Positions 9,342 to 33,898 of a DNA stretch of 64,000 bases are shown piece after piece. The notes below the pieces were generated by a model. That model was given only the letters and a program-made list of their open reading frames with translations, did no database searches and was not told the origin of the DNA. The stretch is from the NCBI RefSeq assembly GCF_018326425.1, contig NZ_AP024601.1, positions 794,001 to 858,000 of the forward strand. Direction: 5' to 3'. A program made the translations under genes and the position numbers. The stretch's first letter is position 1. Every line of letters begins with the position of its first letter. The stretch is from Polycladomyces abyssicola (GTDB lineage Bacteria > Bacillota > Bacilli > Thermoactinomycetales > JIR-001).

Positions 9342-9501
9342 TTCAGCTATGGCCCAATCAATGTTCAGTTCACCTTCATCGGCAATTCAGCTAAAGGGAG
9401 TATGATGACAAAAGTAAGAAGCCATCAGGACAAGGGAGTGTCTGGCCATTCCGTAAGGGAGCCGGGAAAACAATGTGGACAGTATTCACCAGACATACCC
9501 T
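9342..9501 (+). ncRNA. Divergent, shorter copy of the 32.7-kb structured RNA element
   Basis: This leader segment shares, in the same order, blocks found in the element at 32716-33013: TTCAGCTATGG (9342-9352), AGTTCACC (9367-9374), a GCTAAAG loop (9390-9396) closed by TCATC/GATGA, and a 3' block of about 45 bases (9457-9501) that includes GGACAGTATTCACCAGACA unchanged. The middle hairpins of the longer copy are absent. In both places the conserved 3' block ends a few tens of bases before a ribosome-binding site. It may be a decayed mobile-element RNA or a leader RNA. Confidence 0.45.
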
Positions 9502-31665: not shown

Positions 31666-32619
31666 CTAACCAACTCTTTTCTCCTTTTGTATTTGTGGTT
31701 TTGGAAGCAGTATGCGGGCAACGATGAGGGAAATAATCATCGCTCCTCCAAATCTGATGATGATCATTGTGACAAGGTACGTGTTTAACGGAATAAAGGC
31801 AATCGTATCTTCAACTACTGCATGGCAGAGAGATAATAAAATCATCATGATTGTAAGGTCCCTTTTTTTGAATACCCTCTCCTTTACTTGTTGAATCATC
31901 ATTCCGGCACCAAACATGAGCCCGAACAATAATCCGCTGGTGATTGTGAGATTTGCTCGTTTTTCAATGCCAATCGATTCAACAAAGAAACTTGTCCATC
32001 TGGTAAACCGATGTATCAAATTCATGTCATGCAATGCTTGAATCATAATCAACAATGGAATGGCTATGAGACAAAATTGTAAAGTGTTGAAGGTAGCTGT
32101 CTTTAGCCCTTGCGTGAAGATTTCGGTCCATCCATTTGGAATTGCAGGATTCGTGTTGATTAATCCATATTGAGCTTGGGAATTACCTCCATTCCAGCAA
32201 ATTTGAACAATCCATCCAAATAAAATGGCGGTAAAAATTCGAAAGAAGGAAATGAGTAAGGGATTCACCCCAATCTTTTTGCATATGACGGACTCTAGAA
32301 CCAAATTATGAGAAAAACTAAGCATGACGGCCAAAATAAAGACCTCTTTCTTCGTCAGGGAAATGGATAAAATAGCCCCGATTCCTGCATACAAGTTAAT
32401 CAAATTACCAAGGATCAGGGGGATTGTCGCTTCCCCAGGTAATCCGATCCACTTCATGGTGGGTGTCAATGCTTGGGACAAATTTTTGATGACCGTTGTA
32501 TATTGAAGAATATTGACCAAGAGTGTTACTGTAAATATGACTTTTCCCAAAGTCCAAGATGTATGAATACCAGTTTTTAAGCCTTTTTTCCATGATATTG
32601 GGCTCATATTCATCATCAC
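31666..32619 (-). CDS. Nucleoside-recognition (Gate) domain membrane protein
   Basis: 317 aa, about eight membrane helices, with two copies of the Gate/nucleoside-recognition fold: GNLINLYAGIGAILSISLTKKE in the first half and SGLLFGLMFGAGMMIQQVKER..CHAVVEDT in the second. Related to SpmA/SpmB-like and transporter-associated proteins. The coding sequence is richer in AT than the flanking ytk/ytp genes. It is divergent from the LysR gene with a 421-base gap that holds the RNA-like element, so the LysR product may control it. Confidence 0.75.
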   Translation of the reverse strand: MMMNMSPISWKKGLKTGIHTSWTLGKVIFTVTLLVNILQYTTVIKNLSQALTPTMKWIGLPGEATIPLILGNLINLYAGIGAILSISLTKKEVFILAVMLSFSHNLVLESVICKKIGVNPLLISFFRIFTAILFGWIVQICWNGGNSQAQYGLINTNPAIPNGWTEIFTQGLKTATFNTLQFCLIAIPLLIMIQALHDMNLIHRFTRWTSFFVESIGIEKRANLTITSGLLFGLMFGAGMMIQQVKERVFKKRDLTIMMILLSLCHAVVEDTIAFIPLNTYLVTMIIIRFGGAMIISLIVARILLPKPQIQKEKRVG

Positions 32620-32715
32620 TGCCTTATTAGCTGTCTTTGTACCTTTATCTTACTACACCTCCATTGAACAAAGATAATTCTTAATATTGATACTTGCGCA
32701 TCACTATTATTTATA

Positions 32716-33013
32716 GGCGAGAAAACTCCCGGCTTCAGCTATGGGGGATGAGAGCGAGCGTTGGACGAAGGTGGTTCATTACTGATAGTTCACCATTGTA
32801 TGGGGCTAAAGAGGCAATGTTTTCTCAGGCGATCGACTGACCAAGCCCGGCCGATCGAAGACCCGGGAAGTGTAGGATTGAAATCGCGGGCAAAAACTTC
32901 TAAGCGAAGTGTACTTTACCCGCGTCCTGCGTACTGAAACGGCAAGCTTCCTTGCAGGGCGCAGGTGGAGTGAGCCGAGAAAGCGATTGGACAGTATTCA
33001 CCAGACACGCCCT
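32716..33013 (+). ncRNA. Candidate structured RNA, IS200/IS605-type (HEARO/omega-RNA-like), without nuclease gene
   Basis: A chain of paired elements fills the gap before the LysR gene: CTCCC/GGGGG around GGCTTCAGC (32726-32747); GGTG/CACC (32770-32794); CATTG/CAATG (32794-32819); CGATCG/CGATCG (32830-32857); GCGGG/CCCGC with inner ACTTC/GAAGT (32886-32923); CCTGCG/CGCAGG with inner GCAAG-CTTC-CTTGC (32926-32965). The first hairpin with GGGGGATGAG is typical of IS200/IS605-family ends, and a structured RNA followed directly by a reading frame recalls IscB-associated HEARO RNA. No iscB or tnpB lies nearby. The class is inference; the pairings are seen. Confidence 0.5.
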
Positions 33014-33040
33014 AATGAATTTGGTCAAAGGGGAGTCTTT

Positions 33041-33898
33041 ATGGAGATAAGTGATCTTGAAATTTTTTATGTCACTGCAAAAGGAGGGAGTATTTCGAAA
33101 GCAGCTAGAAAACTGAATTATGTACAATCAAACGTTACTTCCCGAATCAAGCACTTGGAGAAACAGCTAAAAACTCAACTGTTTTACAGGCATTCCAAAG
33201 GAGTGACATTAACACCAAAGGGGAAAATTCTTCTGCAATATGCAGAAAGAATCTTTGACTTAATTGAGGAAACAAAGGAAGCGGTGATGAAGACCAACAC
33301 ATCGATGGGATCGCTTCAAATCGGATCTATTGAATCCGTGGCGGTTTCGAGGTTGCCGGGTTCAATCTCCCGTTTTTCCAAAGAGTATCCTGATGTCAAC
33401 TTAAATCTGATAATCAATTCGTCAAAGAGGTTAGTTGAGGATGTTCTTGATTTTCAATTGGATGGAGCATTTGTAAGTGCGGCAATTGACCATCCCAATA
33501 TAGTACAGGAGCCTGTTTTTGAGGAAGAACTGGTCATGATATCTTCCCAAAATGAACCTCTCAGCTTATTGGATGTACGGAAAAAATATCTGTTGGTGTT
33601 TGAAGAGGGTTGCTCATATAGAAACAGGTTGATCACTTGGATGAATGAACAAGGGTACCACACCAACAGGATTATGGTTTTGGATTCGCTTGAGGCCATT
33701 TTGTCCTATGTCGAAGCTGGGATCGGAATCTCGATCGTGTCTCATCACTATTTGCAACACACCGGCCATCTCAACCGATTTACTCTTTACCCATTGCCCG
33801 AAAAAGTTTCTTTATCACACATTTATTTTATTCACCACAAAAATTCGCAAGCGGCGGTATTACTTGAAAGGTTTCTACAAACGGTGAAACAGAAGTAA
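33041..33898 (+). CDS. LysR family transcriptional regulator
   Basis: 285 aa, full length. The N-terminal winged helix-turn-helix (DLEIFYVTAKGGSISKAARKLNYVQSNVTSRIKHLE, about 4-40) is followed by a periplasmic-binding-fold effector domain (about 88-285). ATG 33041 has AAAGGGGAG 4 bases upstream, and the RNA-like element ends 27 bases before it. LysR regulators commonly act on a divergent neighbour, here the nucleoside-recognition membrane protein. The effector is unknown. Confidence 0.88.
   Translation: MEISDLEIFYVTAKGGSISKAARKLNYVQSNVTSRIKHLEKQLKTQLFYRHSKGVTLTPKGKILLQYAERIFDLIEETKEAVMKTNTSMGSLQIGSIESVAVSRLPGSISRFSKEYPDVNLNLIINSSKRLVEDVLDFQLDGAFVSAAIDHPNIVQEPVFEEELVMISSQNEPLSLLDVRKKYLLVFEEGCSYRNRLITWMNEQGYHTNRIMVLDSLEAILSYVEAGIGISIVSHHYLQHTGHLNRFTLYPLPEKVSLSHIYFIHHKNSQAAVLLERFLQTVKQK

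Follow-up and report, generated by a model that had tools for sequence, protein, structure and literature searches.

Probable transposon debris, including a copy of a dispersed structured repeat, upstream of a LysR-family gene in Polycladomyces abyssicola

The LysR locus and its insertion

The stretch of the P. abyssicola genome that was analysed (hereafter the window) comprises 64,000 nucleotides of contig NZ_AP024601.1. It includes a gene for a LysR-family regulator, separated from its divergent neighbour by an intergenic gap at positions 32620-33040 (Table 1). The LysR frame is preceded by its own ribosome-binding site, AGGGGAG, and both the regulator and this site are as the original prediction described them. 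That prediction concerned an interval (32716-33013) of consecutive stem-loops said to fill almost the whole gap. The stem-loops are indeed present, but the wording is generous because the interval covers only ~70% of 32620-33040. When 32700-33040 was folded, the plus strand gave z = -0.53 (26 of 100 shuffles equally or more stable) and the minus strand z = -2.04 (5 of 100). On the plus strand, the stability of the interval as a whole is not exceptional.

Table 1. Features in and around the LysR intergenic gap (window coordinates; a dot marks features given without strand)
Feature	Position	Strand	Basis or remark
Divergent neighbour, 317 aa, Gate (nucleoside recognition) domain protein	31666..32619	-	Domain match
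Remnant resembling an IS200/IS605-type (tnpB) left end	32717..32774	+	74-76% matches to L053 and L057; most secure within the 20-base motif (32747-32766)
Whole insertion relative to the G002 site	32722..33028	.	Empty site in L082; edges uncertain by 7 bases
Stretch between the two pieces, where the MITE 5' terminal inverted repeat would stand	32775..32806	.	Short chance-level matches only
5'-truncated, decayed copy of the ~240-bp MITE-like repeat	32807..33014	+	DNA search, alignments, model R1 (118.9 bits)
Short tail ending GGTCAA	33015..33028	+	Edge of the block missing in the G002 orthologue
LysR-family regulator, 285 aa	33041..33898	+	Pfam HTH_1 and LysR_substrate; orthologue 83% identical in G002

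The only congeneric orthologue of the LysR gene that was found lies in G002, and G001 has none at E ≤ 1e-40. The orthologous site in G002 is empty: the entire block is missing, locus L082 reads straight through ...CTTATAGGGGAGTCTTTATGG... at the junction, and the sequences flanking the block are 89% (left) and 86% (right) identical to those of G002. The uncertainty of the edges arises because AGGCGAG (32715-32721) and AGGGGAG (33029-33035) fit the same G002 bases. The insertion spares the LysR ribosome-binding site and makes the region upstream of the gene longer by ~307 bases.

The first ~58 bases of the interval resemble the left end of a tnpB-type element, so the original prediction, which gave the first hairpin an IS200/IS605 look, was right in kind. 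The matching sequences are L053:343-398, which lies upstream of a tnpB frame, and L057:305-360; 42 bases of the left piece also match L047 at 86%. A TTTATA target-like sequence stands at 32710-32715, just before the remnant. The likeness is clearest in the 20-base motif GATGANAGCGAGCNTYGGAC, which has 12 matches in the same genome (≤2 mismatches, the one in the window included), compared with 0 for a reversed control. In the 50 bases preceding the motif the window aligns weakly, with a score of 14, compared with 50 for the reference L062 itself, 23-42 in eight other loci, and 7 and 11 in two more. The window thus has a recognisable end behind a TTTAT-type target, although the resemblance is weak outside the motif.

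One of the 12 left-end motifs has an open tnpB frame downstream (L053, 403 codons), and five of the 12 have a right-end-like motif ~200 bp downstream (L059, L062, L063, L065 and L070), a spacing too close for an intervening tnpB gene. Such paired motifs have the layout of short non-autonomous IS200/IS605 derivatives. In the stretches examined of the tnpB loci L052, L054, L055 and L056, no such left end was found. The window site differs from an IS200/IS605 tnpB element in having neither tnpB nor, by eye, a right-end hairpin in 32775-33028, where the GGTCAA tail is the only right-end-like feature. TCAA is a known cleavage site of IS608, and by this analogy the tail is possibly what is left of the last bases of an IS605-type right end.

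A dispersed repeat with IS5-type ends

The majority of the hairpins are part of a MITE-like repeat with many copies. As a DNA query, the interval gave at least 47 matches in the same genome (40 of 107 first-look candidates were scored): the query itself, six short pieces of its ends (15-26 bases), and a further 40 with 71-93% identity, on both strands, within window positions 32807-33024. The aligned copies define a ~240-bp element with terminal inverted repeats GGGYGTGTCTGGT and ACCAGACACRCCC, and a 15-base terminal pattern has 171 matches in the genome (≤2 mismatches), compared with 43 for a reversed control. The window copy has lost its 5' terminal repeat; what it retains is the conserved-structure core, at 32854-32991, and the 3' terminal repeat ACCAGACACGCCC, followed by TA. 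Elsewhere in the window, at 9434-9501, a short remnant combines a match to the 5' terminal repeat with a piece of the 3' core behind it.

Copies were aligned in three sets, of which A1 (19 of 26 copies from the P. abyssicola genome, G000) and A2 (38 of 47 copies) were picked for completeness, and A3 contains all 73 matches to R1, split into four rows from G035 and 67 distinct others. R1, a covariance model, describes the 151 positions of the core; because A2 was used to build it, its matches to the 38 rows of A2 hold by construction. At E ≤ 0.001 it found 89 or more matches in G000 and at least 146 and 128 in its two congeners, counts that are lower bounds because 150 of 1248-1504 candidates were scored per genome. 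With stricter filters, matches at E ≤ 1e-6 were found in four of 42 genomes of the order, namely these three congeners and G035, a member of another family with 12 matches; the repeat was not detected in the other 38. Pairwise identity averages 88.5% (71.4-97.4) among 13 rows from G001, which come from ten hand-picked loci, 85.5% among all 22 G001 rows, and 74.7% among 40 G000 rows, and the G001 copies therefore look younger than those of G000.

The repeat is short, dispersed and present in many copies, and is inferred from its size and divergence to be non-coding; its terminal inverted repeats are shared with an insertion sequence. We consider it a new MITE-type family, undescribed as far as we searched: a limited search of the literature on MITEs, including those of Thermoactinomycetaceae, found no description of it. 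In distant mode, neither a plasmid collection (two queries) nor a phage collection (one query) gave a match, and one pattern scan of viral contigs was likewise negative. A tRNA or tmRNA identity was considered and rejected, as none was found in three loci. The repeat shows no orientation bias to genes: among 47 copies, a minority of the total, a simple and crude ORF caller placed the downstream frame on the same strand in 28 and on the opposite strand in 19. A second copy in G000, L009:3636-3846, has no clean empty site, since its position holds unrelated sequence of similar length in G002 and a 2.4-kb gap in G001. Another dispersed repeat family, distinct from this one, was noticed at L009:2030-2316 (G000:C1 ~2948029-2948315); it occurs many times in both congeners and also stands at the ends of several G002 contigs.

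DDE_Tnp_1 and DDE_3 were the transposase families searched for a partner. A 951-bp element in G002 (L153:1034-1984), with TA on each side, has the terminal repeats of the MITE: GGGCGTGTCTGGT is common to both, and the other end has two mismatches. Its two frames, DUF4096 and DDE_Tnp_1, place it in the IS5 family by NCBIfam (NF033580). Unlike the repeat, this element codes for a transposase, and it has no match to R1. Among the three congeners, it is the only one of seven DDE_Tnp_1 loci with these terminal repeats; the single such locus in G000 is without them, and in G001, which has the youngest copies, there is no DDE_Tnp_1 match at E ≤ 1e-8. An IS630-type transposase was rejected as partner, there being no DDE_3 match in the three congeners at the same threshold. 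At G000 61-70.5 kb, facing pairs of terminal repeats only ~35-45 bp across and without a core were seen (L143:2139-2183 and L143:7379-7412). A long element with the same terminal repeats was considered in this region and rejected, as no transposase is among the listed frames.

A TA target-site duplication is likely. The flank seen most often is TA, at one end in 15 of 43 copies and at the other in 21 of 46, although the flanking dinucleotides agree in only eight of the 43 copies with both ends found. Locus L107 of G001 has two copies that each interrupt a further copy of the repeat at a CTAG-like site, an arrangement that, as read from the sequence, would fit TA duplication. These two copies (L107:1440-3076) are ~1.3 kb apart and each inside the same loop of the surrounding copy, which is probably a segmental duplication of one nested insertion. 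A copy common to G000 and G002 starts where an open frame of 322 or 327 codons ends, at its TAG stop. The four G035 copies examined, out of 12, retain the core, and their flanks are without IS5-type ends. No significant inverted repeats were found in these flanks, where 38, 270, 141 and 286 of 300 shuffles reached the observed score.

Small repeats of comparable kind occur in other hosts. The ends of the bcr1 repeat differ from IS5-type ends, and the pneumococcal RUP shares its ends with an insertion sequence of IS630 type, whereas the partner candidate identified here is of the IS5 family. The P. abyssicola repeat further differs from bcr1 in that its core is common to a second genus whose copies, where seen, lack its IS5-type ends, and the likeness drawn here to the bcr repeats, which belong to another host group, is one of description. 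The bcr1-bcr3 repeats of the Bacillus cereus group, among the closest parallels, are high-copy, intergenic and MITE-like and are often located in untranslated regions of mRNAs; bcr10 and bcr18 are described as having a conserved secondary structure (PMC3446304). The pneumococcal RUP, BOX and SPRITE elements are likewise small, structured and scattered through the genome; their distribution led to the judgement that they are parasitic, and they are likely to influence genes co-transcribed with them (PMC3049150).

Structure and covariation of the core

The repeat core is structured, with support from covariation in the aligned sequences. The fold of an intact copy (L103) has z = -6.6, and 0 of 200 shuffles are as stable; a G035 copy has z = -3.05. 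The window copy (32807-33014, plus strand) is decayed, with z = -2.24 and seven of 200 shuffles equally or more stable.

Three stacked helices, of 7, 8 and 9 pairs, were scored on 71 distinct sequences. Helix cells are paired in 88.0% of cases, compared with 23.7-38.9% in versions of the structure slid along the alignment, and the covariation score is 0.133, compared with 0.016-0.052. Changes on both sides occur in 14 of 24 pairs, compared with 7.8 in shuffles, of which one in 500 reaches 14. The test is weakened because the slid versions come near on two measures (13 pairs with both-side changes at -1 and 12 at +1; 35 doubly changed cells at +1 compared with 31 observed), because A3 was fitted to R1, and because the consensus structure, having been drawn by hand from a single copy (L103), has an advantage over the slid versions.

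At the consensus level, five pairs in the two outer helices were exchanged by both-side changes between the genus and G035: C-G to G-C twice, C-G to A-U, G-C to A-U, and A-U to G-C, the last of which is a tie (two of the four G035 rows). The helix cells of G035 comprise 89 Watson-Crick pairs out of 96, with one G-U and six neither. Consensus identity between the genus and G035 is 20/30 in the outer helices, 16/18 in the inner helix and 75/102 in unpaired columns. The closing stem, as read from the alignment, is TTTTCCC/GGGAAAGC in the genus and TTTTTCC/GGAAAAAC in G035. Within the genus, G-U cells outnumber A-C cells by 97 to 62, or by 76 to 62 without one subfamily-level column, a modest wobble excess of the size expected from drift of single copies after insertion.

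The core matches no catalogued RNA family. At gathering score, no Rfam family is found in the window; at E ≤ 10, the region 32600-33100 gives five matches, none of them HEARO and none credible; and at E ≤ 1, nothing is found in five loci with intact copies.

Origin of the interval and alternative readings

The interval is very probably transposon debris, composed of an IS605-type left-end remnant and a decayed copy of the high-copy IS5-type MITE. The original prediction had offered a relic as one of three readings, and this one is supported by the absence of the insertion from the orthologous site of the congener and by the resemblance of the first ~58 bases to an IS605-type left end. In the sequence of events that we propose, the LysR leader would first have acquired an IS605-type element behind a TTTAT(A) target; this element would later have received a copy of the repeat, and both would since have decayed. 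The repeat would behave as a non-autonomous MITE: it has the terminal inverted repeats of an IS5-family element, and the transposase of such an element would mobilise it in trans, with CTAG-like sites as targets and probably with duplication of TA. The active lineage, rather than each old copy, would keep a ~190-nt core with its branched fold, and any effect on LysR expression would be incidental.

The other two readings, an exapted guide-type RNA and a leader RNA controlling the LysR gene, fared poorly. A guide-type RNA (HEARO or TnpB omega RNA) is improbable in the extreme, even with a first hairpin that resembles an IS605-type end of a tnpB element and with repeat copies near a tnpB fragment and near a left-end motif. 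It is unsupported because there is no credible Rfam match, in the window or in the five loci with intact copies, and because the IS605 piece is like the end upstream of tnpB. TnpB guide RNAs lie at the right end of the element; the window piece is a left end, matching sequence upstream of the L053 tnpB frame, and the right end of L053 reads differently. The association of the repeat with tnpB elements is occasional, because in the stretches examined a core match lies near only one of 11 other left-end loci and one of seven tnpB loci, and none was found at the other ten and six. The first of these, L065:1850-1979 (L065/L010), is ~330 bases past the left-end motif and beyond the right-end motif of that element, and the second, L052:1951-2100, follows a tnpB fragment at a distance of a few hundred bases. 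Co-option of the inserted copy as a leader of the LysR gene is also very unlikely, if slightly less so. The copy lies in the sense orientation directly upstream of a gene with an intact ribosome-binding site and start codon, and one promoter-like site (32681-32710, 9 of 12 matches) lies upstream of it. A single such site does not exceed what shuffled sequences yield (0.5, sd 0.7), no terminator-like site was found, and the copy lacks its 5' end and has a 12-column gap in the core alignment as well as only a modest fold (z = -2.2). A dedicated leader is unsupported because the genome has at least 89 matches to the repeat, the repeat shows no orientation bias and the block is absent from the G002 orthologue, the only congeneric one found.

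A more open alternative concerns the repeat family. Its core could be a functional mobile RNA of ~190 nt, transcribed from the elements and of service to them or to the host, in which case the DNA ends would be no more than a vehicle; we regard this as a real possibility, though one that falls short of an even chance. The stability of the intact copy, the excess of both-side changes over shuffles, the higher covariation score and paired fraction than in slid versions, the five pairs exchanged in the outer helices of G035, and the retention of the core in four G035 copies without IS5-type ends all argue for it. Against it stand the weaknesses of the covariation test, the decay of old copies almost like unconstrained DNA (the G-U and A-C counts given above) and the lack of orientation bias to genes. 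Templated repair can keep DNA palindromes complementary, and palindromes in the repeat may have stayed complementary as DNA in this way. The fuller proposal is somewhat more doubtful still, namely that the repeat carries an undescribed mobile structured RNA with a branched fold, a long-range closing stem, a long compound arm and conserved loops, which in one genus has used IS5-type MITE ends to reach 90-150 copies per genome or more, and which also occurs in G035, from another family of the order, without those ends where seen. Since the G035 copies were seen without IS5-type ends, the RNA, and not the transposon end, would be the conserved unit. Such an RNA might have a function of its own as RNA, for example a ribozyme-like activity, the binding of a protein or the regulation of transposition.

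On the preferred reading, the hairpins of this locus are what mobile elements have left behind, and no regulatory RNA is dedicated to the gene. The repeat family, with at least 89-146 matches per genome in the genus, would amount to ~20-35 kb if every copy were full length, and it will keep yielding false calls of structured leader RNAs in front of genes. The locus itself is ordinary, and the part worth pursuing is the structured core that is common to the genus and, with other flanks, to G035. If this core is a working RNA that switched vehicles, it would offer a clean system in which to ask why mobile elements carry conserved RNA.

Pieces of the repeat were also seen shortly past the right ends of tnpB elements in G000, namely the copy at L052:1951-2100 and a remnant of the 3' terminal repeat at ~1912-1928 of L053. 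Their position could be due to chance or to a common site preference.
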